Source: Rhodopseudomonas infernalis
Lineage (GTDB): Bacteria > Pseudomonadota > Alphaproteobacteria > Rhizobiales > Xanthobacteraceae
Direction of reading: 5' to 3'
DNA: 64,000 nt
NCBI RefSeq assembly: GCF_022271405.1
Contig: NZ_JAJNAL010000014.1
Coordinates: forward strand, 1-64,000
The position numbers and the translations under genes were made by a program. The notes under the pieces were generated by a model. It did no database searches. It had not been told where the DNA came from and was given only the letters and a program-made list of their open reading frames with translations. Every line of letters begins with the position of its first letter. Position 1 is the first letter of the stretch. Shown piece by piece: positions 12,915 to 46,273 of this stretch.

Positions 12915-13699
12915 TGGGATCCCGGCGCGCACAGCTGTGGGTGATCGCCGCGCTGGCGCTGCTCGCGCTGGCCGGCCCGGCGCGCGCCGAGAAGCTGATC
13001 GTATCGGTCTCCAACGCCCGGGTGACGGTGACGCCGAACTATTCGGGCGGCGAGCTGGTGCTGTTCGGCTCGGTCGAGCGCGACAGCCCGGCGCCGGTCG
13101 AGCCGATGGCCTATGGTCTGGTCGTCACCGTGATCGGTCCGCGCTCCGACATGGTGACGCGGCGCAAGGAGCGCCGCTTCGGGATCTGGATCAACACCGA
13201 TTCCCGGCAGTTTCTGATGGTGCCGAGCTATCTGGCGGTGTTTTCCAACCAGCCGCTGCAGGCGATCGCCGCCCCCGAGGTGCGGCGACGGCAGCAGCTC
13301 GGCATCCGCTACACGCTGCTGACCCAGCGGATCGGCACCGACTATGCGGACGTCGTTTCCGACGATCAGTTCCGCACCGCCTTCGTGCGGCTGCGCGAGG
13401 AGCGCAAGCTCTACGAGGAAGACCCGGCAGCGGTGAAATTCCTCACCCCGACGATGTTCCGCACCGGCATTCCGCTGCCCGCCGAAGTGCCGATCGGCAG
13501 CTACGAGGTGCACATCAAGCTGTTCGGCAACGGCGAACTGCTGACCCAGACCGAGACCTCGTTCGAAATCGCCAAGGTCGGCTTCGAACAATTCGTCGCC
13601 ACCGCCGCCAAGCAGCACGGCATCCTCTACGGCCTGTTCACCGCCCTGATGGCCCTCGCCACCGGCTGGATGGCATCGATCGTGTTTAGGCGGGACTAA
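12914..13699 (+). CDS. PF09608/TIGR02186-type membrane-anchored protein
   Basis: This 261-aa protein has an N-terminal signal sequence (LWVIAALALLALAGPARA, cleavage near residue 26), an extracytoplasmic beta-rich body (VTVTPNYSGGELVLFGSVER) and a C-terminal transmembrane helix (GILYGLFTALMALATGWMAS). This matches the alphaproteobacterial putative transmembrane family PF09608/TIGR02186, whose function is unknown. Its one-base overlap with the TSUP transporter suggests an accessory periplasmic partner for that transporter. Confidence 0.82.
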   Translation: MGSRRAQLWVIAALALLALAGPARAEKLIVSVSNARVTVTPNYSGGELVLFGSVERDSPAPVEPMAYGLVVTVIGPRSDMVTRRKERRFGIWINTDSRQFLMVPSYLAVFSNQPLQAIAAPEVRRRQQLGIRYTLLTQRIGTDYADVVSDDQFRTAFVRLREERKLYEEDPAAVKFLTPTMFRTGIPLPAEVPIGSYEVHIKLFGNGELLTQTETSFEIAKVGFEQFVATAAKQHGILYGLFTALMALATGWMASIVFRRD

Positions 13700-13730
13700 T
13701 CGCGCCCCAAGCACGTCACGCCCCAAACAC

Positions 13731-13870
13731 GTCATTCCGGGGCGCGCGCAACGCGCGCGAACCCGGAATCCCGCCGTTCAGGGCACCCGACAGCGCCGCG
13801 CGTGGCGAACTCTCGACTCAACAACTTCGAGATTCCGGGTTCGCTCGCTTCGCGAGCGCCCCGGAATGAC
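13731..13870. repeat. Palindromic repeat, family D (GTCATTCCGGGGCGCGC/GCGCCCCGGAATGAC)
   Basis: It begins GTCATTCCGGGGCGCGCGC, ends GCGAGCGCCCCGGAATGAC, and contains AACCCGGAATC and GATTCCGGGTTCGC half-palindromes. It lies between the convergent PF09608 and pdeM genes and may terminate both. Further copies are at 27251-27364 and 36917-37014. Confidence 0.8.
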
Positions 13871-13926
13871 TCGTGGAGAGGTGGGCGCGCCGGCGAAAGC
13901 TGAGTGAAGACCTGCGCGTCGATCCG

Positions 13927-14628
13927 TCAGCAGCAGCGCGACGCCGCGATGGCGTGGAGGCGGTGGTCGCCGAGGACGTGGGCGACGAACGCGGCCGAGC
14001 CGAACAGGCGGGCGAAGGCGGCGTCGCGGATGTTGAGGCCGCCGGTGTAGGCGCCGAACGCCGGCATCACCACACGCAGGCCGTCGCCGGCGAAGCAGCG
14101 CCGTTCGACGCTGCGGCCGCGGCGGCTGACGCGGGCTTTCGGATGCAGATGGCCGGCAATTTCGCCGCGCGCGCCGGTCGGCTCGTGGCGGAACGCGATG
14201 TCGCCGATCGTCACTTTGTCCGCGACGCTGCCGCCGAGGTCGCCCGGTAGTTCCGGATCGTGATTGCCGGAGATCCAGATCCAGTCGCGGCGCGCCTGCA
14301 GCGCCGTGAGGATATCGCGATTGGCGGCCGACAGCCGGCCATGCGCGTGCCGATCGTGAAAGCTGTCGCCGAGCGCGATCACGCAGCGCGGATCGAACCG
14401 CGCGATCACTGCACCGAGCCGGCCGAGCGTCGCCACCGTATCGTAAGGCGGCAGCAGCACGCCGCGCATTGCGTAGCTCGAGCCTTTTTCGAGATGCAGA
14501 TCGGACACGATCAGCAGCCGCTCGGCTTCCCAATACAACGCGCCAGACAGGTCGGCCACCATCGCAACATCGGCGACGGTGACGACGGGCACCTCATCCA
14601 GTTCGTTCGAAGCGCGGTCTGCCGGCAA
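13927..14628 (-). CDS. pdeM: Ligase-associated DNA damage response endonuclease PdeM (metallophosphoesterase)
   Basis: This 233-aa calcineurin-like phosphoesterase has all the metal-binding motifs: LIVSDLHLEKG, VIALGDSFHD, ISGNHDPE and AGHLHPKA. PdeM is the phosphoesterase member of the bacterial four-gene set (PdeM, Lhr-like helicase, MBL exonuclease, ATP-dependent ligase) associated with DNA damage response. The helicase gene ends 79 bp upstream on the same strand, so the two likely form an operon. The spacer is a palindromic repeat. Confidence 0.88.
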   Translation of the reverse strand: MPADRASNELDEVPVVTVADVAMVADLSGALYWEAERLLIVSDLHLEKGSSYAMRGVLLPPYDTVATLGRLGAVIARFDPRCVIALGDSFHDRHAHGRLSAANRDILTALQARRDWIWISGNHDPELPGDLGGSVADKVTIGDIAFRHEPTGARGEIAGHLHPKARVSRRGRSVERRCFAGDGLRVVMPAFGAYTGGLNIRDAAFARLFGSAAFVAHVLGDHRLHAIAASRCC

Positions 14629-14640
14629 AACGATCTATCC

Positions 14641-14720
14641 GTAGGATGGGTTGAGCGTAGCGAAACCCATCAATTCAGTGCAGCGCGCGATGGGTTTCGC
14701 TTGCGCTCAACCCATCCTAC
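14641..14720. repeat. Palindromic repeat, family B variant; supplies the helicase stop codon
   Basis: GTAGGATGGGTTGAGCGTAG at the left is mirrored by GCGCTCAACCCATCCTAC at the right. The helicase stop codon (minus strand, 14707-14709) and its last residues (RRMG) are encoded inside the right arm, so insertion of this element probably reset the C-terminus of the helicase. Confidence 0.75.
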
Positions 14721-17463
14721 GCGTTGACGTATCTTCCATCGCCTCGCGCACCAATTCGTCGGCGGCTTCGGCGAGCAGTTCATCGGAGGCTTCGCCGTAC
14801 ACGGCTTCGCGGCCGATTTCCAGCATCACCGGCACCGCCAAAGGCGACACGCGGTCGAGTTCCTTGTGGACGATGTGACCCTTGATTCGCGTCAGCATAT
14901 CACTGAGACGTCGCAAATCGAGCAGCCCTGTGGCGGCGTCGGCACGGGCGGCGCGCAGCAGCACGTGATCGGGCTGGTGTTTGTTCAGTACGTCGTAGAC
15001 CAGGTCGGTCGAGAACAGCACCTGCCGGCGCGATTTTTCCTCGCCGGCGAAGCGCCGCGCGATCAGTCCGGAGATGATCGCTGCGTAGCGAAAGGTGCGC
15101 TTCATCAGCGCCGATTCGGCCAGCCAGGCCTCGAGATCGTCACCCAGCATGTCGGGATCGAACAGCGCGTCGAGGTCGAGCCGGCCCTGCCGGATCATAT
15201 GAGACGTATCGCCCAGCCCCCACACCGCCAGCGCATATTCGTTAGCGACGAAGCCCAGCGGCCGGGCGCGGGCGCGCTCCAGCCGCCGCGTCAGCAGCAT
15301 GCCGAGCGTCTGATGCGCCAGCCTTCCCTCGAACGGATAGCACACCAAATAGTACTTGGCGGCGCGCGGAAACGTCTCGACCACCAGCTCGCTGCGGCCG
15401 GGCACTTTCGACGCCTTGGTCTGCAGCGCCAGCCAGTCGCGCACCTGATCGGGCAATCCCTTCCAGGCGCGCTTGTCGGCCAGCAGCCCGCGGACGCGCT
15501 CGGCCAGATACGTCGACAGCGGAAACTTGCCGCCCATGTAGGATGGCACCCGCGCGTCCTTGTCGGCGGCGCGCGAGACGTAGACCTGATCCTCCATCAT
15601 CGCCTCGTAGCGCACCACTTCGCCGCCGAACACGAAGGTGTCGCCCGGCGTCAGGCCTTCGATGAAGTACTCCTCGATCTGGCCGAGCATCCGTCCGCCA
15701 CGCGCGATCGCGCCGGTGTGGCCGCCGCCTTTCGACCGCGCCGAGCGCACCAGCTTGACCTTCAGCATCGCCTCCTCGACGATGGTGCCGACGTTGAGCC
15801 GATAGGCCTGCCGCACCTTCGGATTGGCGACCCGCCAACGGCCCTGCTTGTCCTGCTTGATGCGGGCGAAGCGTTCGTAGCTCTTCAGCGCGTAGCCGCC
15901 GCTGGCGACGAAATCGAGCGTGTCGTCGAAATCGGCGCGACTGAGATCCGCATAGGGCGCCGCGCTTCTCACTTCACGATACAGATCATCCGCGACAAAC
16001 GGCTCGCCGCAGGCGCAGCCGAGGATGTGCTGCGCCAGCACGTCGAGCGCACCCTTGCGCTGAGGCGGCGTGTCCTGCGCATTCTCGGCGACGGCGTCGA
16101 TCGCGGCGACGCATTCCAGCACTTCGAAGCGATTGGACGGCACCAGCACCGCGCGCGAGGCCTCATCCAGCCGGTGATTGGCGCGGCCGATCCGCTGCAT
16201 CAGCCGCGACGAGCCTTTCGGCGCGCCGACATTCACGACGAGGTCGATGTCGCCCCAGTCGATGCCGAGATCGAGCGACGAGGTACACACCACGCCGCGC
16301 AGCCGACCGGCCGCCATCGCGTCCTCGACCTTGCGGCGCTGCGCGACGTCGAGCGAGCCGTGATGCAGCGCGATCGCCAGATTGTCGTCGTTCATGCGCC
16401 AGAGTTCCTGGAACAGCATCTCGGCCTGGCTGCGGGTGTTGACGAAGACCAGCGTGGTGTTGTTGCCCTTGATCAGGTCATAGATCTCGGCCAGAGCATG
16501 CCGCGCCGAGTGGCCGGCCCACGGCAGGCGCTCCTTGGTATCGAGCATCTCGACGATCGGCTGCACCGCACCGCTGGCGACGACGATGTCGGCCTGACCA
16601 ACAGCCCTCTCTTCTCCCTCTCCCCTTGCGGGAGAGGGGACAAAGGGTTGGGGCACCAGGAAACGCGCGAGTTCGTCCGGATCGGCGACGGTCGCCGACA
16701 GCCCGGTGGCGCGCAGTTGCGGCGCGATCCGCCACAGCCGCGCCAGCCCGAGCGACAGCAGATCGCCGCGCTTCGACGTCACCAGCGCGTGGAGTTCATC
16801 GAGCACGATCCGCCGCAGCGAGCCGAACAGATACGGCGCATCGTCGGACGCAAGCAGCAGCGCGAGCTGTTCGGGCGTGGTGAGCAGGATGTCGGGCGGA
16901 TATTTGCGCTGCCGCGTCCGCCGCGACACCGGGGTGTCGCCGGTGCGGGTCTCGACCCGGATCGGCAGCCCCATCTGGGCGATCGGGAGTTCGAGATTAC
17001 GCGCGATATCGACCGCCAGCGCCTTGAGCGGGGAGATGTAGAGCGTGTGCAGGCCGCCTGGTCGAGGCACGAATCCTTCTCCCCGCGCGCGGGGAGAAGG
17101 TGGCGCGGCAAGCGCAGCTTGCCGTGCCGGATGAGGGGGCGTCTCGGCAGGACGCGCCGCCGCCGACGGCGCGGAGTCATCTGGCCCCTCACCCGACTTG
17201 CCGGCTCCGCCGACAAGTCGACCCCTCCCCGCAGGCGGGGAGAGGTTGGGCAACGCCTCGCTCAGTTCCACCAGCGTCGGCAGGAATCCGGCCAGCGTCT
17301 TGCCGGCGCCGGTCGGCGCGATCAGCAGCGCCGCCCGATCGGCCCGCGCCCGTTCCAGCAACGCGAGCTGATGCGCCCGCGGCGCCCAGCCGCGCTCGGC
17401 GAACCAGCGGCGGAACCGTTCGGGCAGCAGGTCGGAGGACGGGTCGGATTCGGCGAGGCTCAC
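14707..17463 (-). CDS. Ligase-associated DNA damage response DEXH-box helicase (Lhr-like)
   Basis: This 918-aa superfamily 2 helicase has Walker A LIAPTGAGKT at about residues 47-56, the TTPEQLALLLAS motif, Walker B/DEXH LDELHALV at 221-228, GLSATVAD, LVFVNTRSQAEMLF, and RIGRANHRLDEASRAVLVPS, followed by the Lhr winged-helix and DUF4145-like C-terminal part. It is expected to unwind DNA together with PdeM, the exonuclease and the ligase. It is about 80-90 residues longer than expected because two stretches, about residues 73-136 (17058-17247) and 271-288 (16602-16653), are in-frame palindromic repeat sequence; the first splits the Walker A region from motif Ia. Both sit between helicase motifs, so the enzyme may remain active. 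Confidence 0.9.
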   Translation of the reverse strand: MSLAESDPSSDLLPERFRRWFAERGWAPRAHQLALLERARADRAALLIAPTGAGKTLAGFLPTLVELSEALPNLSPPAGRGRLVGGAGKSGEGPDDSAPSAAARPAETPPHPARQAALAAPPSPRARGEGFVPRPGGLHTLYISPLKALAVDIARNLELPIAQMGLPIRVETRTGDTPVSRRTRQRKYPPDILLTTPEQLALLLASDDAPYLFGSLRRIVLDELHALVTSKRGDLLSLGLARLWRIAPQLRATGLSATVADPDELARFLVPQPFVPSPARGEGEERAVGQADIVVASGAVQPIVEMLDTKERLPWAGHSARHALAEIYDLIKGNNTTLVFVNTRSQAEMLFQELWRMNDDNLAIALHHGSLDVAQRRKVEDAMAAGRLRGVVCTSSLDLGIDWGDIDLVVNVGAPKGSSRLMQRIGRANHRLDEASRAVLVPSNRFEVLECVAAIDAVAENAQDTPPQRKGALDVLAQHILGCACGEPFVADDLYREVRSAAPYADLSRADFDDTLDFVASGGYALKSYERFARIKQDKQGRWRVANPKVRQAYRLNVGTIVEEAMLKVKLVRSARSKGGGHTGAIARGGRMLGQIEEYFIEGLTPGDTFVFGGEVVRYEAMMEDQVYVSRAADKDARVPSYMGGKFPLSTYLAERVRGLLADKRAWKGLPDQVRDWLALQTKASKVPGRSELVVETFPRAAKYYLVCYPFEGRLAHQTLGMLLTRRLERARARPLGFVANEYALAVWGLGDTSHMIRQGRLDLDALFDPDMLGDDLEAWLAESALMKRTFRYAAIISGLIARRFAGEEKSRRQVLFSTDLVYDVLNKHQPDHVLLRAARADAATGLLDLRRLSDMLTRIKGHIVHKELDRVSPLAVPVMLEIGREAVYGEASDELLAEAADELVREAMEDTSTRRMG
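16603..16655. repeat. Family A palindromic repeat inside helicase gene (copy 1)
   Basis: CTCCCTCTCCCCTTGCGGGAG followed by GGTTGGGG is embedded in frame in the helicase reading frame, where it encodes about residues 271-288 (FVPSPARGEGEERAVG). The frame is kept and no stop codon is introduced. Confidence 0.8.
17058..17247. repeat. Family A palindromic repeat inside helicase gene (copy 2)
   Basis: Outer arms CTTCTCCCCGCGCGCGGGGAG and CCCCTCCCCGCAGGCGGGGAG flank internal short palindromes (GGCAAGCGCAGCTTGCC, GACTTGCCGGCTCCGCCGAC). The element is translated in frame into an Ala/Pro/Gly-rich insert, about residues 73-136 of the helicase. Confidence 0.82.
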
Positions 17464-17529
17464 CCCGCCAAGCTAGGGATTCGAACCCCGCAGGTCGAGG
17501 TACGGCAATCAAAATGTCCAGCTACGCCC

Positions 17530-17647
17530 GTCATTGCGAGGAGCGAAGCGACGAAGCAATCCAGCTCCCTGCACCGAGCTTCTGGATTGCTTCGCGGAGC
17601 CTGTCATCGGGCGGCGCTTTGCGCCGACCCGGTAGCTCGCAATGACG
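17530..17647. repeat. Palindromic repeat, family E (GTCATTGCGAGGAGC/GCTCGCAATGAC)
   Basis: It begins GTCATTGCGAGGAGCGAAGC and ends GGTAGCTCGCAATGAC, with an inner pair GAAGCAATCCAG/CTGGATTGCTTC. It occupies most of the 332-bp gap between the helicase start and livK. No gene is seen in the rest of that gap apart from the terminator at 17724. Other copies are at 42075-42154 and 46194-46273. Confidence 0.82.
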
Positions 17648-17723
17648 TCGCTTCGCCGGCTCGGCGCAATCTCGCTGCCGTCGTGCGGCTTCGTGCCGGG
17701 CATCGATCCGATGCGGTCGTCCA

Positions 17724-17753
17724 AACGAAAATGGCCGGGACGAGCCCGGCCAT
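17724..17753 (-). terminator. Rho-independent terminator after orphan livK
   Basis: Stem ATGGCCGGG (17731-17739) pairs with CCCGGCCAT (17745-17753) around a 5-nt loop. On the minus strand it is followed by TTTTCGTTT, a plausible uridine tract. It lies 43 bp downstream of the livK stop. Confidence 0.75.
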
Positions 17754-17796
17754 GTCGTAGCTGGTTGACGGACCAGTTTCGGTCGATGTCGCGGAC

Positions 17797-19011
17797 CTAC
17801 TCCGTGACGGGTTTATCCGAGACGTCCCAGTCCTTGCCGTTGAACTGCATGGTGTAGAGCGTCTTGATCGAGGTGTAGTCGGTCGGCGTGTAGGAGTAGC
17901 TGACGCCCGGCAGCATGTGCGGCGTGCTGAAGCCGCCCAGCATCGACGCCTGCTTCAGGACGTTCTCGTGAGTGAGGTCGTCACCGCAGCGACGCAGGAT
18001 CTCGGCCATCGCGGCGGCCTGGCCGTAGCCCGAAAACGCGATCGAATTGTCCGCCGTGACGTTCGGCAGATACTTCTTGCGCAGCTCTTCGAACCCCATC
18101 ACGCCCGGATCGTTGGCCCACTTGGCCGATCCGATGTCCTTGGTGTAGGCGATCGCCACGATGCCCTTGGCGTTTTCGAGGCCCGCGGCTTCGAGAATCG
18201 AACGCCCGGTCGAGCCGGCCGACAGCAGTTGCAGCGGCTTCCAGCCGATTTCGGCAACCTTGCGGATCGACTGCGACGTCGCCTTGCCGGTGGTGATGTT
18301 GTAGAACACGTCGGCGCCGGACTTCGACAGGTTGATCATCTGCGAATCGATCGTCGGCTCGGTCAGGTCGTAGCTGGCCTCGGCCACCACCTTGGCCTTG
18401 CCGCCGGCCTCTTCCAGAACCTTCTTGAACGGGCCGAGGAAGTCGCGGCCGAAATCGTCGTTCTGATACAGAATCGCGACCTTGGCGTCGGGCTTCACGC
18501 TCAGCACGTATTTGGCGAGGATGCGCGCCTCGGTCGGATACAGCGGCAGGCCCGCCATGGTCCATTTGAAGTTCTTCGGGTCGTTCCACTTCGAGGCGCC
18601 GGTGTTCAGCAGCAGCTGCGGCACCTTCTTGTTATTGAGATATTTGTGGACTGCGGTCTGCGGCGCGGTGCCGAGCGAGCCATACAGCGCCAGCACTTCC
18701 TCCTGCTCGACCAGCCGGCGGGTCGCCTCGACCGCCTTCGGGGCGCTGTAGGAATCGTCCAGAGTGATGAACTTGACCTTGCGCCCGTTGATGCCGCCCT
18801 TCTCGTTCAGCATCTGGAAATAGGCTTCGCCGACGCGACCGAGCACGCCGTAGAGCGAACCCGGACCGGAATGCGGCACCGTCTGGCCGATCTTGATCTC
18901 GGTGTCGCTGGCGCCGGCATCGTATTTCTTGTCGGCGGCGACCGCCGGGGCGGCGAGCAGCAACGCGCCCAGCACGGTGGACGCGAAGACGGAATTCGAG
19001 CGCTGATTCAT
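17797..19011 (-). CDS. ABC transporter substrate-binding protein, branched-chain amino acid (LivK) type
   Basis: This 404-aa exported type I periplasmic binding protein has a signal peptide (VFASTVLGALLLAAPAVA), then IKIGQTVPHSGPGSLYGVLG and DDSYSAPKAVEATRRLVEQE, the standard Peripla_BP_6 pattern. Such proteins bind amino acids, amides or aromatic acids. No permease or ATPase gene is adjacent, so it is an orphan that either works with a remote transporter or serves in sensing. It interrupts the DNA-repair genes and is closely followed by its own terminator. Confidence 0.88.
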   Translation of the reverse strand: MNQRSNSVFASTVLGALLLAAPAVAADKKYDAGASDTEIKIGQTVPHSGPGSLYGVLGRVGEAYFQMLNEKGGINGRKVKFITLDDSYSAPKAVEATRRLVEQEEVLALYGSLGTAPQTAVHKYLNNKKVPQLLLNTGASKWNDPKNFKWTMAGLPLYPTEARILAKYVLSVKPDAKVAILYQNDDFGRDFLGPFKKVLEEAGGKAKVVAEASYDLTEPTIDSQMINLSKSGADVFYNITTGKATSQSIRKVAEIGWKPLQLLSAGSTGRSILEAAGLENAKGIVAIAYTKDIGSAKWANDPGVMGFEELRKKYLPNVTADNSIAFSGYGQAAAMAEILRRCGDDLTHENVLKQASMLGGFSTPHMLPGVSYSYTPTDYTSIKTLYTMQFNGKDWDVSDKPVTE

Positions 19012-19352
19012 ACAGTTTCCTCCTGGTGCCGGTTCGCTGGCGCGTCCGGTTCTCGTTCTGCCGTTGGCGGGTTCGCTCTTGCGGCGGCGGCATCCTGTGC
19101 GGAACGCCCGCCGATCGCAACCCTGGATGTGCAGGAAACGGCTGCGGATTTCCCGCCCAATGGGAAGTTTTGTGCTTAGCGCAGCGACCTCTCGCCGCAG
19201 CCGGCGCGGCGCCCGGCGTGTGGGGAAATCGGTCCGTTAATCAGTCATTTACGCTTGAAACAACGCGAGAATTTCGGCAGGTGTGGCAGTCCGGGTACAG
19301 CCGCAAGCTGCGAACAGAGCTAGTTTTCGCGGATCATCAGGAAGGTACCCGC
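19012..19352. promoter_or_regulatory. Divergent promoter region, livK / outer-membrane protein
   Basis: This 341-bp gap contains both divergent promoters. I see no gene and no family A-E repeat in it. A GGAA-type ribosome site (CAGGAAGGTACCC) precedes the outer-membrane protein start at 19353. I could not identify convincing -35/-10 boxes. Confidence 0.5.
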
Positions 19353-20714
19353 ATGAAAAAGATTCTCGCCGGTGTGGCGCTCGTTGGCACCGCGGTCAGC
19401 GCCCAGGCAGCCGATCTCGCCGTCAAAGCTCCCTACATGAAGGCGCCGGTGGCGATGGTCTATGACTGGACCGGCTTCTACATCGGCGCCAACGTCGGCG
19501 TCGGCCTCGGTCGTGACCTTGCGGCGCATGCCTTCCCGGCAGGCGGCACCTTCAATTCGACCTACCTGCAGCCGCAGGGCGTGATCGGCGGCGGTCAGAT
19601 CGGCTACAACTGGCAGAGCAACACCACCTTCCTGGGTCCGTTGCTGATCGGCATCGAAGCCGACATCCAGGGCAGCGGCGTCTCCGACGGCCGCACCACG
19701 CTGAACAGCGCGGTCGGCACGGTGAATTACAATCAGAAGCTCGACTGGTTCAGCACCGTGCGCGGCCGTATCGGTCTGGTGCGCGGTCCGGCGGTCGGCT
19801 ACGTCACCGGCGGTTTCGCGGCCGGCAACGTCAAGACCACGGTCACCGAGCCCGGCCTGGGCCTGGTGCCGTTCGCCCTCAGCGAGACCCGCACCGGCTG
19901 GACCCTCGGTTCCGGTGTCGAAGCAGCGCTCGGCGGCAACTGGACCGGCAAGATCGAGTACCTTTATCTCGACCTCGGCAACCGCAACGACGCGTTCGGC
20001 ACTCAGGCGCTACGCACCGAATATCGCGAGAGCATCTTCCGCGCCGGCGTGAACTACCGCATCGGCGGCACCGGCATGTACATCGCGCCGCCCCCGGCGA
20101 ATTGGGCCGGCATGTACATCGGCGCCAACTTCGGCGGCGCGCTGGGCCGCAACGCCACGACCGCTTCGATCGGACCGTTCAACGAGCAGTTCAGCCTGTC
20201 GCCCGACGGCTACGTCGGCGGTGGTCAGATCGGCTACAACTGGCAGGCCGCCAGCTGGGTGTTCGGCCTCGAAGCCGACTTCCAGGGCTCGACTCAGAAG
20301 GACGACCGCACCGCGGTGCTCAATTCGACCGTTCTGTACAACCAGAAGCTTCCCTGGTTCGGCACGGCGCGTGGCCGCATCGGCTATACGGTCGGCACCA
20401 CGTTGTTCTACGCCACCGGCGGTTACGCTTACGGCAACGTCAAGACCAACATCGTGACCCCGATCAGCAACGAGACCTTCAACCGCACGCGCAGCGGCTA
20501 CGCTGTCGGCGCCGGCATCGAAACTCCGTTCAGCCTGTTCGGCCTGCTCGGCCCGAACTGGACCTCGAAGTCGGAATATCTTTATGTCGACCTCGGCTCG
20601 ACCACCGACGCGTTCGCCGGCGGCCTGGCTGTGAACACCTCCAAGGTCACCGAGCACATGCTGCGCACCGGCATCAACTATCACTTCAACCAGCCGGTCG
20701 TCGCGAAGTACTAA
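19353..20714 (+). CDS. Outer-membrane beta-barrel protein with two tandem Omp25/31-like barrels
   Basis: This 453-aa protein has a clear signal peptide (MKKILAGVALVGTAVSAQAA) and then two homologous halves. The first, about residues 39-238, starts DWTGFYIGANVGVGLGRD. The second, about 249-453, starts NWAGMYIGANFGGALGRN. Each contains GGGQIGYNWQ, a FLGPLLIGIEADIQGS or WVFGLEADFQGS strand, RGRIG(L/Y), and an aromatic closing strand (FRAGVNYRI; LRTGINYHF). Single-barrel relatives are usually about 200-280 aa, so this looks like an internal duplication or fusion. The ORF frame opens at 19026, but ATG 19353 with GGAAGG upstream is the true start. It probably forms small barrels in the outer membrane; transport or adhesion roles are unknown. 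Confidence 0.9.
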   Translation: MKKILAGVALVGTAVSAQAADLAVKAPYMKAPVAMVYDWTGFYIGANVGVGLGRDLAAHAFPAGGTFNSTYLQPQGVIGGGQIGYNWQSNTTFLGPLLIGIEADIQGSGVSDGRTTLNSAVGTVNYNQKLDWFSTVRGRIGLVRGPAVGYVTGGFAAGNVKTTVTEPGLGLVPFALSETRTGWTLGSGVEAALGGNWTGKIEYLYLDLGNRNDAFGTQALRTEYRESIFRAGVNYRIGGTGMYIAPPPANWAGMYIGANFGGALGRNATTASIGPFNEQFSLSPDGYVGGGQIGYNWQAASWVFGLEADFQGSTQKDDRTAVLNSTVLYNQKLPWFGTARGRIGYTVGTTLFYATGGYAYGNVKTNIVTPISNETFNRTRSGYAVGAGIETPFSLFGLLGPNWTSKSEYLYVDLGSTTDAFAGGLAVNTSKVTEHMLRTGINYHFNQPVVAKY

Positions 20715-20745
20715 GCCTCGTCCGATCCGGACCTGAGACACCAAA

Positions 20746-20770
20746 CCCCGGCCGAAAGGCCGGGGTTTTT
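20746..20770 (+). terminator. Rho-independent terminator after outer-membrane protein gene
   Basis: CCCCGGCC-GAAA-GGCCGGGG followed by TTTTTG is a textbook 8-bp stem with a GAAA tetraloop and a T run, 31 bp past the stop codon. Confidence 0.92.
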
Positions 20771-20790
20771 GTTTGCACTCACTGCCTGGG

Positions 20791-20830
20791 GCGCCCTCAC
20801 CCCAGCCCTCTCCCGCAAGCGGGAGAGGGG
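20791..20830. repeat. Family A palindromic repeat, short form
   Basis: GCGCCCTCACCCCAGCCCTC followed by TCCCGCAAGCGGGAGAGGGG is a half-element of family A, lying between the terminator and the exonuclease gene. Confidence 0.7.
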
Positions 20831-20922
20831 GCAGGCGGTGCCCGGGGCACTCATCTGCGGGCATCCACGGAACCAGTCCGGGTGCGACTCGTTTGCCCTG
20901 CTGGCCGGCCTATATAGAAATC

Positions 20923-21969
20923 ATGCGCCCCCACGACATCCTGTTGCCGATCGCCTCCGGGCTTTGCTGCAAGCCCGGCGGCTTCCATATCGACCCGGTG
21001 CGACCGGTGGAGCGGGCCGTGATCACGCACGGCCATTCCGACCATGCGCGCCCCGGCCACGGCGCCGTGCTGGCGACGCAGGAAACCCTGGACATGATGC
21101 GGCTGCGCTACGGCGAGAATTTCGCCGGCAGCACGCAGGCGATCCGTTACGGCGAAACCATCCGGCTCGGAGACACCACGGTGACGCTCCATCCGGCCGG
21201 TCACGTGCTCGGCTCGGCGCAGATTGCGGTCGAAGCGGGCGGCATCCGTATCGTCGCGTCGGGCGACTACAAGGATGCGCCGGACCCGACCTGCACGCCG
21301 TTCGAAATCGTGCCCTGCGACGTGTTCATCACCGAGGCGACGTTCGGGCTGCCCGTGTTCCGTCATCCCAACGCGGCCGGCGAAGTCCGCAAGCTGCTCG
21401 ACTCGGTCGCGCTGTTTCCGGAGCGGGCGCATCTGGTCGGCGCCTATTCGCTCGGCAAGGCGCAGCGGGTGATCGCCCTGATCCGCGAGGCCGGCTACGA
21501 CGCGCCGATCTATCTGCACGGCGCGATGGAGAAGATCACCCATTACTACGCGGAGCACGGCGTTCCGCTCGGCGAGCTACGCCCGGTGAAGGGCGTCAAG
21601 AAGGCCGAGCTTGCCGGCACCATCACGCTGGCGCCGCCATCGGCGACCTCCGATTTGTGGACGCGGCGCTTCCCCGATCCGCTCACCGCCTTTGCGTCCG
21701 GCTGGATGCGGGTGCGCGCCCGCGCCCGGCAGCGCGGCGTCGAACTGCCGCTGGTGATTTCCGACCACGCCGACTGGGACGGCCTCACCGCCACGATCGC
21801 GGCGACCGGCGCCGGCGAAGTTTGGGTCACCCACGGTCAGGAAGACGCGCTGGTGCATTGGTGCCAGAGCAAGGGCCTCGCCGCGCGGCCGCTCGATCTG
21901 GTCGGCTATGGCGACGAGGACGAAGACGCCGGCATGCCGGCGGACGAAAGCGAGGCCGCAGAGGCATGA
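20923..21969 (+). CDS. Ligase-associated DNA damage response exonuclease (metallo-beta-lactamase / beta-CASP fold)
   Basis: This 348-aa SNM1/CPSF73-like nuclease has the metal site AVITHGHSDHARPGH (H36, H38, D40, H41), HPAGHVLGSAQI, SGDYKDAPDPTC and, at the end, VISDHADWDGL. It is the exonuclease member of the four-gene ligase-associated repair set and would process DNA ends before sealing. I start at ATG 20923; the longer frame from 20773 reads through a repeat. The stop overlaps the ligase start (ATGA), so the two are translationally coupled. Confidence 0.9.
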   Translation: MRPHDILLPIASGLCCKPGGFHIDPVRPVERAVITHGHSDHARPGHGAVLATQETLDMMRLRYGENFAGSTQAIRYGETIRLGDTTVTLHPAGHVLGSAQIAVEAGGIRIVASGDYKDAPDPTCTPFEIVPCDVFITEATFGLPVFRHPNAAGEVRKLLDSVALFPERAHLVGAYSLGKAQRVIALIREAGYDAPIYLHGAMEKITHYYAEHGVPLGELRPVKGVKKAELAGTITLAPPSATSDLWTRRFPDPLTAFASGWMRVRARARQRGVELPLVISDHADWDGLTATIAATGAGEVWVTHGQEDALVHWCQSKGLAARPLDLVGYGDEDEDAGMPADESEAAEA

Positions 21970-23828
21970 ACCGCTTTGCCGCCCTGCTCGACCGCCTCGC
22001 CTACGAACCCGGCCGCAACGCCAAGCTGCGGCTGCTCGTCAGTTATTTCCGCGAGGTCGAAGACCCCGACCGCGGCTACGCGCTGGCGGCGCTGACCGGC
22101 GCGCTGTCGTTCCGCCACGCCAAGCCGGCGCTGATCCGCGCCCTGATCGCCGAACGCACCGACCCGGTGCTGTTCGAGATTTCCTACGACTACGTCGGCG
22201 ATTTGTCGGAGACGGTCGCGTTGATGTGGCCCGCCCCGAGTCGGGCGGCCATCCCCCCTGGCGGGGCCTCCTCCCCTCCCCCTTGCGGGGAGGGGTCGGG
22301 GGTGGGGGTCCCCACCGGGACGCCATCCTTGGGGCCCCCTCACCCCAACCCTCTCCCGCAAGCGGGAGAGGGAGCTCGCCCCGCAAGCGGTGAGACCATC
22401 GCTTCAGAACTAAGCGCCGTAGTGAGTTCCGGCCACAACAACCCGCCTCCCCCCACCCTCACCGAAATCGTCACCACGCTGCACAGTCTCGGCAAGGCCG
22501 AGATGCCGGCGCAGTTGACGCGGTGGCTGGACGAGCTCGACGAGACCGGACGCTGGGCGCTGCTCAAGCTGGTCACCGGGTCGTTGCGCATCGGCGTATC
22601 GGCGCGACTGGCCAAGACCGCGGTCGCGGCGCTCGGCGATAAGGATCCGCACGATGTCGAGCTGATCTGGCCCGGCCTCGCGCCGCCGTATCTCGAACTG
22701 TTCGCCTGGCTGGAAGACCGCGGCCCGCAGCCGGTCAACCGCGATCCGGCGCCGTTCCGGCCGGTGATGCTGGCGCATGCGGTCGAGGACACCGACTTCG
22801 CCGCGATGAATCCGGCCGACTACATCGCCGAATGGAAATGGGACGGCATCCGCGTTCAGGCGGTCAGCGGCCTTGGCGAGCACGGCGACATCGTGGTGCG
22901 GCTATATTCGCGCAGCGGCGAAGACATCACCATGAGTTTCCCCGATCTGTTGCCGTCGCTGCGCCTGCCCGGCGCGATCGACGGCGAGCTGCTGGTGCTG
23001 CGCGAGCAGCGCGTGCAGACCTTCAACGTGCTGCAGCAGCGGCTGAACCGCAAATCGGTGACGCCGAAGCTGACCAAGGAATACCCGATCCATCTGCGCG
23101 CCTACGATCTGCTCGGCGACGGCGACGAGGATCTGCGCACGCTGCCGTTCGCCGAACGCCGCGCCCGGCTCGAGACCTTCATCGCCCGTCTCGACGATCC
23201 GCGCATCGACCTGTCGCCGACCGTGGCGTTCGACGACTGGGACGGGCTGCGCGCCGCGCGGCGCGACCCGGCCTCCGCAGGCGCCGGGCTCGATGCTGAT
23301 GCTGTCGAGGGCGTGATGCTGAAGCGGCGCGACGCTTTGTATCTGCCGGGCCGCCCGAAGGGCCAATGGTGGAAGTGGAAACACGACCCCCACCTCATCG
23401 ACGCCGTGCTGATGTATGCGCAGCGCGGCCACGGCAAGCGCTCGTCCTATTACTCCGACTACACCTTCGGGGTCTGGACCGAAGCCGACGGCGCCGATCA
23501 GCTGGTGCCGGTCGGCAAGGCGTATTTCGGCTTCACCGACGAGGAGCTGCTGCAGATCGACCGTTTCGTCCGCCGCAACACCACCGAGAAATTCGGCCCG
23601 GTCCGCCATGTCGTGCACCAGCCGGATCAGGGCCTGGTGCTGGAAGTCGCGTTCGAAGGCCTGCAACGCTCGCCGCGGCACAAATCGGGAGTCGCGATGC
23701 GGTTTCCCCGGATCAACCGGCTGCGCTGGGACAAGCCGCCGCGAGACGCCGACCGGCTCGAAACTTTGGAGCGGATGCTGAAGGCCGACGCGCCGCGCCG
23801 CGAAAAAGCCGCCGCCGGCGGGCATTGA
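21966..23828 (+). CDS. ATP-dependent DNA ligase (cisplatin-resistance / LigC-like, repair-associated)
   Basis: This 620-aa ligase has an N-terminal DNA-binding domain, a nucleotidyltransferase domain with the adenylated lysine K291 in AEWKWDGIRVQ, the ELLVLR and VMLKRRDALYLPGR motifs, WWKWKHDP (motif V) and a C-terminal OB fold. It seals nicks using ATP and belongs to the ligase-associated damage-response set. It is longer than relatives because about residues 92-157 (22239-22437) are an in-frame palindromic repeat translated as a Pro/Gly-rich loop (PPHPNPLPQAGEGARPASGE). The insert sits between helices of the DNA-binding domain, so catalysis may be unaffected. The ATG overlaps the exonuclease stop by four bases. 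Confidence 0.92.
   Translation: MNRFAALLDRLAYEPGRNAKLRLLVSYFREVEDPDRGYALAALTGALSFRHAKPALIRALIAERTDPVLFEISYDYVGDLSETVALMWPAPSRAAIPPGGASSPPPCGEGSGVGVPTGTPSLGPPHPNPLPQAGEGARPASGETIASELSAVVSSGHNNPPPPTLTEIVTTLHSLGKAEMPAQLTRWLDELDETGRWALLKLVTGSLRIGVSARLAKTAVAALGDKDPHDVELIWPGLAPPYLELFAWLEDRGPQPVNRDPAPFRPVMLAHAVEDTDFAAMNPADYIAEWKWDGIRVQAVSGLGEHGDIVVRLYSRSGEDITMSFPDLLPSLRLPGAIDGELLVLREQRVQTFNVLQQRLNRKSVTPKLTKEYPIHLRAYDLLGDGDEDLRTLPFAERRARLETFIARLDDPRIDLSPTVAFDDWDGLRAARRDPASAGAGLDADAVEGVMLKRRDALYLPGRPKGQWWKWKHDPHLIDAVLMYAQRGHGKRSSYYSDYTFGVWTEADGADQLVPVGKAYFGFTDEELLQIDRFVRRNTTEKFGPVRHVVHQPDQGLVLEVAFEGLQRSPRHKSGVAMRFPRINRLRWDKPPRDADRLETLERMLKADAPRREKAAAGGH
22239..22437. repeat. Family A palindromic repeat inside DNA ligase gene
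   Basis: CCCCTCCCCCTTGCGGGGAGG and CCCTCTCCCGCAAGCGGGAG arms flank a GGGGTCCCCACC/GGGGCCCC centre. The whole element is translated in frame within the ligase, giving about 66 extra residues with no stop codon. Confidence 0.82.
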
Positions 23829-23897
23829 CGGCCCCAACCCGGTTCCCCATTTCCCCAACACCGATTATCATCCGGCCGGACCGCGAGGACTGAAGCG

Positions 23898-24200
23898 ATG
23901 CGCGACGACACCCGAAACCTGCCGGCCTCCAATGACGGCCTCTCCCGTTTCCTCGGCGGCTCTCCGCTCGCGGTGCTGTTCCGCCTGGCGCTGATGTCGA
24001 TCCTGGTCGGCGTCGTGCTGGCCGCGATCGGACTGGACCCGTGGAACATCCTGGTCAGCATCCGGCTGCTGTTCGAGCGGCTGTGGGATCTCGGCTTCGA
24101 CGCGATCAGCGGATTGTGGCGCTACTTCCTGCTCGGCGCCGTCATCGTGATCCCGATCTGGCTGCTGTCGCGCGTGTTCAGCAGCCCGCGCGGGCGCTGA
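23898..24200 (+). CDS. Small two-TM membrane protein (DUF6460-like)
   Basis: This 100-aa protein has a polar N-terminus, LSRFLGGSPLAVLFRLALMS leading into a hydrophobic helix, DPWNILVSIRLLFERLWDLG, and a second helix YFLLGAVIVIPIWLLSRVF. I recognise it as resembling the rhizobial DUF6460 inner-membrane family, which has no known function. It lies 70 bp after the ligase and just before a MATE gene on the same strand, so it may be part of either transcript. Confidence 0.75.
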   Translation: MRDDTRNLPASNDGLSRFLGGSPLAVLFRLALMSILVGVVLAAIGLDPWNILVSIRLLFERLWDLGFDAISGLWRYFLLGAVIVIPIWLLSRVFSSPRGR

Positions 24201-27250: not shown

Positions 27251-27364
27251 GTCGTTCCGGGGCACGAGCGTCAGCTCGTGAACCCGGAACCTCGAGGTTG
27301 GTGTATTCTTTTCCAGCTTGTCGGGATTCCGGGTTCGCGCGCTTTGCGCGCGCCCCGGAATGAC
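27251..27364. repeat. Palindromic repeat, family D, second copy
   Basis: It runs from GTCGTTCCGGGGCACGAGCG to GCGCGCGCCCCGGAATGAC with inner GAACCCGGAA and GATTCCGGGTTCGCGC. It separates the convergent MBL and pyrD genes. Confidence 0.78.
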
Positions 27365-27380
27365 GCGCCTGTGGCCGGCG

Positions 27381-41866: not shown

Positions 41867-42074
41867 ATCGTTTAATTCAAGGGAAATGACGCACAGGCGT
41901 CAGGCGGCGGCGCCAGCCGATCCGGCCGCGCGATCCCCCGACGCGCAGCGCGGGCAGGCTAACGCAGCCAGGCCCAGCCAGACATCCCTACGATGGGACC
42001 AAGGCGCGCGCCTCATCCAGCGCATCAGCGCGATGTGCCGGCCAGCGGCGCCAACACGACCACCAACCTCAGAG

Positions 42075-42154
42075 TCATTGCGAGGAGCGAAGCGACGAAG
42101 CAATCCAGCCCCGTGCACGGCGCCTCTGGATTGCTTCGCTTCGCTCGCAAATGA
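42075..42154. repeat. Palindromic repeat, family E, second copy
   Basis: It runs from GTCATTGCGAGGAGCGAAGC to GCTTCGCTCGCAAATGATGG, the counterpart of 17530-17647, between the htpX terminator and the livH promoter. Confidence 0.78.
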
Positions 42155-46193: not shown

Positions 46194-46273
46194 GTCATTG
46201 CGAGGAGCGCAGCGACGAAGCAATCCAGCTCCGTGCGCGGAGCCCTGGATTGCTTCGCTCCGCTCGCAATGAC
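46194..46273. repeat. Palindromic repeat, family E, third copy
   Basis: It runs from GTCATTGCGAGGAGCGCAGC to TTCGCTCCGCTCGCAATGAC. It lies between the convergent P450 and SDR genes and may terminate both. Confidence 0.8.

Follow-up and report, generated by a model that had tools for sequence, protein, structure and literature searches.

The stretch of DNA analysed here, referred to as the window, comprises 64,000 nucleotides of Rhodopseudomonas infernalis (NCBI RefSeq assembly GCF_022271405.1, contig NZ_JAJNAL010000014.1, positions 1 to 64,000). It contains a four-gene DNA damage set, two members of which, a helicase and a DNA ligase, carry palindromic repeats inserted in frame. The ligase-associated DEXH (Lhr-type) helicase gene lies on the reverse strand at 14707–17463 (TIGR04121, 1083.6 bits against a cut-off of 850), and its product contains the Pfam domains DEAD, Helicase_C, WH_Lhr and DEAD_assoc. 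The ATP-dependent DNA ligase gene is on the forward strand at 21966–23828 (TIGR04120, 805.8 bits against a cut-off of 400); the named ligases that match its product best belong to Bradyrhizobium and to related genera, among them Afipia and Tardiphaga. The set is completed by the ligase-associated exonuclease (20923–21969, forward strand, TIGR04122) and the ligase-associated endonuclease PdeM (13927–14628, reverse strand, TIGR04123), each of the four being above its curated NCBIfam cut-off.

The helicase features two inserts and the ligase one, in agreement with an earlier note on this DNA that had reported in-frame palindromes in both genes. All three include pyrimidine-arm hairpins (CCCTCTCCC..GGGAGAGGG and close variants), keep the reading frame and contain no stop codon. 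Helicase insert 1 (residues about 72–135, of which 17074–17250 on the reverse strand encodes residues 72–130) separates the motif I helix from motif Ia; it has two hairpins, at 17222–17245 and 17075–17100, and is translated as PNLSPPAGRGRLVGG...PPSPRARGEG. Helicase insert 2 (16594–16644, reverse strand, residues about 274–290) has a single hairpin at 16616–16638. The ligase insert covers residues about 91–158, and within it a composite element of 104 bp (22271–22374, forward strand, residues about 103–137) is built in the order hairpin (22273–22295), tail, spacer, inverted tail, hairpin (22349–22372), with the translation SPPPCGEGSGVGV...PHPNPLPQAGEGA. Helicase insert 1 and the ligase insert share this architecture, the tail being GGTGAGGGG or GGGGGTGGGGG. 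The earlier note had placed the inserts of both genes in one 'family A'; helicase insert 1 is a sister subtype (CCTCTCCCCGC.., CCTTCTCCCC..) of the same architecture and not the canonical family A sequence. The ligase composite is open in five of its six frames, so an open frame is easily kept by such sequence. A different repeat ends the helicase gene: a family B inverted pair of repetitive extragenic palindromic (REP) units of the GTAG type (14641–14720, units 14641–14671 and 14689–14720; recognised from its sequence, with no strand assigned) supplies the last residues, RRMG, and the TGA stop codon at 14707–14709, the latter as the earlier note had also proposed. The same RRMG end is found in three relatives (G003, G011 and G013).

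The inserts fall in the parts of the proteins that AlphaFold2 predicts with the least confidence. In the ligase model, residues 94–158 form the sole long stretch with a predicted local distance difference test score (pLDDT) below 50. In the helicase model (14 partial sequences, mean pLDDT 73) the inserts are the main low-confidence stretches, with pLDDT below 50 at positions 72–107, 120–133 and 279–286, although four shorter stretches also fall below this value. The structure of Mycobacterium smegmatis Lhr (5v9x) has a 7-residue loop at helicase site 1. Tolerance is the likely explanation for the repeated filling of the ligase loop described below.

Comparison with relatives, denoted G001 onwards (G000 being the own genome and G020 a member of a neighbouring genus), shows that the loops are polymorphic. 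Helicase site 2 measures 30 bases, and is thus empty, in G003, G005, G007, G008, G010, G015 and G020; it measures 51–66 bases in G000, G004, G009, G011 and G014, and 135–150 bases with two hairpins in G002, G006, G012 and G013. On the helicase tree, in which G001 was entered as a dimer from a partial gene, the 'empty' label requires at least four state changes, even with the count restricted to well supported branches. Helicase site 1 is 42 bases long in G006 and 48 in G013, against 171–216 in the remaining genus members that were measured and have no gap. In the ten genus members free of assembly gaps, the ligase loop is 177–234 bases long; outside the genus it is 15–27 bases in 10 of 15 genomes and 78–309 in the other five. 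The ligase composite is also present in G020, where the second hairpin differs. Rather than one conserved non-repeat segment shared by all orthologues, the sites are filled, half-filled or empty, and the Pro/Gly/Ala-rich, stop-free loops described in the earlier note are absent or different in relatives.

The lengths of 27 ligase, 28 site-1 and 29 site-2 loops are multiples of three, save for three loops (ligase of G014 and G015, site 1 of G015), all of which contain runs of N from the assembly. These runs, which lie at the hairpin in G014 and G015, together with the fact that several contigs of the own assembly end in family A copies, might suggest an artefact of assembly or annotation. However, the ligase insert is also found in five genomes assembled as a single contig (G002, G003, G004, G010 and G012), and strongly matching protein domains lie on both sides of it. 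Misassembly, which the earlier note had named as a danger, can accordingly be given almost no credence.

The ligase loop was followed further afield in 80 named ligases of Hyphomicrobiales, 77 of whose loops were measured (all except L093, L103 and L128). All 77 lengths are multiples of three, and 15 of the 77 loops contain one or more exact 8-bp pyrimidine-arm hairpins. There are 22 such hairpins in 6,879 bp of loop and 0 in the 123,200 bp elsewhere in these genes, while a purine-first control gave 0 and 0. The median loop is 34.5 bases long without a hairpin and 216 with one. Twelve of the named genomes whose ligase loop contains a hairpin were searched for further copies; in three (L079, L102 and L112) the insert types lie outside the two search patterns. 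In the other nine, the arm type of the ligase insert is present in 8, 12, 19, 26, 27, 29, 33, 98 and 118 copies per genome, against 0 or 1 for a reversed-pattern control. The two largest numbers are from Methylobacterium mesophilicum (98 copies, among those listed mostly with the same CTCTGC/GCAGAG loop) and Jiella endophytica (118 copies). As the arm types of the inserts are multi-copy locally, this one loop has been filled separately in several families.

In the own genome (5,496,629 bases in 87 contigs) there are 54 exact hairpins of the form TCTCCCC..GGGGAGA and 99 of the form TCTCCCG..CGGGAGA, 153 in total, with 0 and 0 for the reversed-pattern controls. A looser 19-base pattern allowing up to 3 mismatches was noisy (142 sites against 94 in the control), and the exact patterns were therefore used. 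Repeat loci were then surveyed in an 856-kb sample together with stretches chosen for holding a repeat, the hairpin scan returning 181 hairpins against 5 in a purine-first control. A first pass with strict thresholds (84 loci, 13 at edges) gave one intragenic locus and missed the ligase; the thresholds were then relaxed. The survey comprises 121 loci, 19 of them at contig or stretch edges and 102 testable, and 53 of the testable loci are groups of at least two hairpins. Six loci were called intragenic and five accepted. The classifier missed helicase insert 1, so that five of 102 is a floor. A further 17 loci were scored as same strand in another frame and 8 as same frame with a stop codon, some of which may be broken genes. 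The sixth call (C1:213944, in a penicillin-binding-protein-like gene) was dropped by eye as a chance palindrome. Six contigs of this assembly (C2, C8, C27, C46, C53 and C75) have a copy of the pyrimidine-arm repeat no more than about 60 bases from their end, and the repeat probably limits the assembly.

Besides the ligase and the helicase, the intragenic hosts in the survey are DNA polymerase I (PolA; identified by NF004397 and TIGR00593), a pseudouridine synthase and a relative of the nickel hydrogenase large subunit; the genome search proposed in the earlier note has thus turned up three more genes. The pseudouridine synthase matches Pfam PseudoU_synth_2, and its best NCBIfam model is the RluA subfamily, with a score under the cut-off of that model. 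Replication and repair genes make up three of the five hosts, and one of three once the ligase and helicase are set aside; as these two prompted the finding, the enrichment is not independent and is not claimed. The hydrogenase-related protein, which we take to be HupK-like, has a single hairpin (L257, G000:C43:2900-6000), translated as TPSPRVRGEGRGEG.

The 104-bp composite of the ligase is also found within the pseudouridine synthase (RluA) of 11 fetched relatives and within the isoleucyl-tRNA synthetase (IleRS) of four (L268–L271), the identity of the latter being given by TIGR00392 (774 bits against a cut-off of 621.4; two of the four tested). As a translated search starting from the ligase led to these copies, their common reading frame is no independent evidence. 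In the ligases of G002 and G020 and in the RluA of G009, a different frame is used for the second half of the composite. In the G002 ligase (L304), where the first half is as in the other genus members, this second half belongs to another subtype and comes with an indel, a switch that may reflect conversion or an old polymorphism. At one spot of the composite, a second palindrome is nested in the ligases of G001 and G012 (L002, L009) and in the RluA of G002 and G012 (L279, L281); it reads CCCCGGACTTGATCCGGGG in the two ligases, and its translation is ACPGLDPG.

PolA has a half element of family A in the linker that joins its 5' nuclease domain to its 3'-5' exonuclease domain; this holds for 13 of the 16 genomes of the genus. 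G014 has none, and G001 and G002 (L299, L300) have instead an inverted pair of the CGTC type, starting with CGTCATGGCCGGGC, ending with GTGACG and translated as VMAGLDPAIHP...KTMDPRVKPGGDG; two repeat families occupy the same linker within one genus. The PolA of G004 (L303) is an open frame of 1112 residues, compared with 1029 in G000. About 85 extra residues lie in the 5' nuclease region, part of which weakly matches the polymerase domain of the query, which looks like an odd internal duplication or a chimera.

The inserts and their host genes differ in how they have changed. The proportions of synonymous (pS) and nonsynonymous (pN) differences were compared between insert and flanks over pairs of genomes; the pairs share sequences and are not independent. 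In the ligase (G002 left out), the insert core has a pS of 0.115 and a pN of 0.111, against 0.335 and 0.060 in the flanks; pS is lower in the insert in 44 of 45 pairs and pN higher in 39 of 45. RluA behaves in the same way (pS 0.166 and pN 0.134 against 0.314 and 0.069; pS lower in 62 and pN higher in 61 of 66 pairs). In the few IleRS sequences, pS and pN are 0.026 and 0.047 in the insert and 0.308 and 0.078 in the flanks, with all 6 pairs showing the lower pS in the insert but just 1 of the 6 the higher pN, and PolA, with 13 insert codons and with five of its 16 sequences left out (G001, G002, G004, G009 and G014), gives 0.125 and 0.060 against 0.279 and 0.040. Over the four genes, insert pS is 8–53% of flank pS. 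The ratio pN/pS is 0.97 in the ligase insert, 0.81 in RluA, 1.8 in IleRS and 0.48 in PolA, and 0.14–0.25 in the flanks. Such high ratios in the inserts imply that the protein sequence is not the main thing conserved; in the ligase and RluA, and on few sequences in IleRS and PolA, the intragenic copy stays constant as DNA.

These ratios bear on the possibility that the inserts are useful flexible linkers, tuning repair or binding partners and kept for that reason in two members of one repair set. The recurrence of inserts in repair and replication proteins, both here and in other species (PMC3733652, in the parts of that paper considered here), would fit such a role, as would the PolA ratio of 0.48, which over its 13 codons is below 1. 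The ligase insert, however, has a ratio of about 1, and the neighbouring linker codons are the most divergent of the gene; the inserts vary in length, the loops can be empty, the models predict disorder, and RluA and IleRS carry the element too. We regard this as very unlikely; of the biological readings, the one that gives the inserts a role in the protein is the weakest.

The boundary of the conserved segment was examined in a codon-window profile (ligase of G002 and G020 and RluA of G009 left out). In nine genomes, pS is 0.56 in the 15 codons before the ligase core and 0.46 in the 25 codons after it, but 0.07 in the core itself, and nowhere else in the gene is divergence as high as in these two bordering stretches. 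A low divergence could also mean that the inserts are recent and have spread between strains by homologous recombination, and elements of different genes and species can indeed be 98–100% identical. However, a conserved core surrounded by freely diverging linker is not what hitch-hiking with recently exchanged DNA would leave behind: the ligase codons touching the insert are more divergent than average. The composite is, moreover, already present with a different second hairpin in the neighbouring genus (G020). A recent spread is thus improbable.

The ratio GGG:GGC is 16:2 in the inserts and 25:205 in the rest of six genes, and CCC:CCG is 13:5 against 44:142, so that the insert codon usage is foreign to the host genes. 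Within the element, the arms differ by 0.008 per site in pairwise comparison and the spacer by 0.168 (seven ligases; lig_G020 and rlu_G009 left out). The arm type also tends to follow the genome: exact copies of CCTCTCCCGCNNGCGGGAGAGG number 22–110 in ten genomes of the genus, and the ligase copy has the TCTCCC arm in nine of these ten, while G009 has 2 exact copies, G014 has 0 and G020 has 0, and the gene copies in these three carry another arm. The ligase copy of G020 and the RluA copy of G009 are of the same variant type as the G002 ligase copy described below, with 8 and 3 exact copies in the respective genomes.

We consider it probable that these segments are REP-like palindromes tolerated in frame and kept constant as DNA by conversion or re-insertion. 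Dispersed repeats, made of pyrimidine-arm hairpins with inward-facing tails and often in inverted pairs, would spread mostly between genes. Their sequence is GC-rich and nearly stop-free, so a copy of triplet length in a surface loop can be translated without harm, and selection would remove copies of unfit length or place. Sites of this tolerant kind would be the loops in the helicase, the ligase, the RluA-type pseudouridine synthase and IleRS, together with the PolA linker. The ligase loop has received different local repeats in different lineages, and the PolA linker two families within one genus. The constancy would most likely arise by gene-conversion overwriting from other copies or by new insertions, and the enzymes would probably work much the same, or just the same, with the inserts as without them. 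It is conceivable, although we hold it with less than even confidence, that segments of ligase, PolA, pseudouridine synthase and IleRS are continually rewritten by dispersed, mostly non-coding repeats and so evolve in concert with junk DNA, and not according to codon usage or protein selection.

Several observations weigh against homogenisation by conversion or re-insertion. The high divergence of the codons flanking the ligase insert hinges on an alignment with many gaps, and IleRS is conserved also immediately N-terminal of its insert (pS 0.088, four genomes). The second hairpin of the G002 ligase is the variant CCTCCCCCGCAAGGGGGGAGG, which has 10 copies in that genome compared with 53 of the TCTCCC type. 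Ligase and RluA copies are not more similar within a genome than between genomes (P = 0.20), whereas simple conversion predicts a higher similarity. G009, G014 and G020 are also deep branches, so that the arm type partly reflects descent, and no REP-associated tyrosine transposase (RAYT) is clearly tied to family A. Finally, one hairpin position covaries from U-A to C-G in 7 cells, a score reached in 1 of 500 shuffles, which could mean selection on the fold.

That last point would be expected if the hairpin itself were selected in place as an RNA or DNA structure, for instance for ribosome pausing at a domain boundary, for mRNA stability or as a gyrase or integration host factor (IHF) site. 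The arms are near invariant while the spacer drifts, 96.8% of the cells in the hairpin alignment across genes are paired, and the covarying change took place in PolA despite its cost, Arg to Gly. (This alignment is without PolA of G001, G002 and G012, ligase of G001 and IleRS of G001, and the ligase rows of G000 and G013 were replaced.) However, the covariation amounts to one position, sliding the structure by 2 columns gives an equally high covariation score (0.106 against 0.102), and other repeats could be the source from which the change was copied. For the composite element without the PolA copies, the covariation amounts to 3 cells in one pair; there the second hairpin of the G020 and G009 rows is out of register by one base, and their pairs were counted as broken. 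In addition, several close relatives have an empty helicase site 2, with the state changes on the tree given above, and the scanned hairpin type is present in only 15 of 77 named ligases. Selection on the hairpin in place is accordingly unlikely, and tolerance followed by conversion or re-insertion remains our preferred reading.

The repeats correspond to REPs in the broad definition, as short, multi-copy palindromes that are mostly extragenic and often in inverted pairs. REPs within genes have been described by Di Nocera et al. (2013, PMC3733652) in several species, many of them in replication and repair genes; the hosts named in the parts of that paper considered here include UvrABCD, RecBCD, Pol I, a DNA ligase, tRNA synthetases and pseudouridine synthases, in marked agreement with the gene classes found in this work. 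It is also described there that stop codons are often supplied by REP ends, and that recB holds, at roughly one and the same site, one REP in X. campestris and another in X. oryzae. The kind of phenomenon is therefore known, and the statement of the earlier note that such repeats are known mainly from Rickettsia is not supported. Like the GTAG and CGTC REPs of PMC3733652, the present ones are small palindromes, mostly intergenic, that form inverted dimers and lie in some cases in frame within genes. In contrast to those, family A lacks both tags: it reads CTCACCCCAACCC-TCTCCC..GGGAGA with no unpaired GTAG, while family B at 14641–14720 does start with GTAGGATGGG, and no CGTC tag adjoins the hairpins in either the ligase or the helicase. 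The considered parts of PMC3733652 contain no mention of the ligase-associated helicase, of DNA-level conservation of translated copies or of one loop refilled across families.

Rickettsia palindromic elements (RPEs; Ogata and Claverie) are another parallel, as a palindromic element in frame inside conserved proteins is found in both cases. In a review of in-frame fusions of RPEs and other miniature inverted-repeat transposable elements (Delihas 2008, PMC2229807, considered in part), RPEs are elements of 105–146 bp that are tolerated in conserved proteins, and one tested enzyme was active with an altered substrate affinity. The host lineage is different here, and the likeness described is one of element type. 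Br-REP1 and Br-REP2 (Hahn et al. 2016, PMC5082802) are palindromes of Bradyrhizobium and Rhodopseudomonas; as far as the parts considered show, they differ from the pyrimidine-arm family of the ligase and helicase, and the Br-REP2 consensus resembles, by eye, another family of the window (13720–13773, 13827–13873 and 27321–27375). In the literature covered (preprints, subscription papers and the supplementary tables of PMC3733652 being outside its scope), no account was found of the pyrimidine-arm family inside these genes. What seems to be new is the conservation, as DNA, of translated repeat copies.

These loops illustrate how a genomic parasite can persist in conserved genes, by fitting the frame, occupying a disordered site and being maintained as DNA. 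They also amount to a natural experiment, with empty, half-filled and full alleles in close relatives and one loop refilled across families. The alleles should be useful for measuring gene conversion and re-insertion of REPs, and for testing the older claim of repair genes as special targets.

The only Y1-type transposase gene found in the own genome (Y1_Tnp, RAYT-like, G000:C41:389-688, L062) has GTAG-type motifs GTAGGGTGGG on both sides (at 207 and 854), and a family A pair (12–169) lies outside these on one side. REPINs are two inverted REPs joined as one mobile unit and tied to RAYT transposases. The present elements resemble them in their inverted pairs, but differ in that the RAYT-like gene is flanked by GTAG-type motifs with the family A pair outside. 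A comparison of window positions 13500–24000 with Rfam gave 11 matches with E up to 1, all under their gathering scores and 8 of them to miRNA models. An intergenic family A hairpin (20806–20829, forward strand) lies upstream of the start of the exonuclease, and a CGTC-type repeat (GTCATTGCGAGGAGCGAAGCGACGAAGCAATCCAG) lies just upstream of the helicase at 17530–17595 and recurs at 42074–42139 and 46194–46259.

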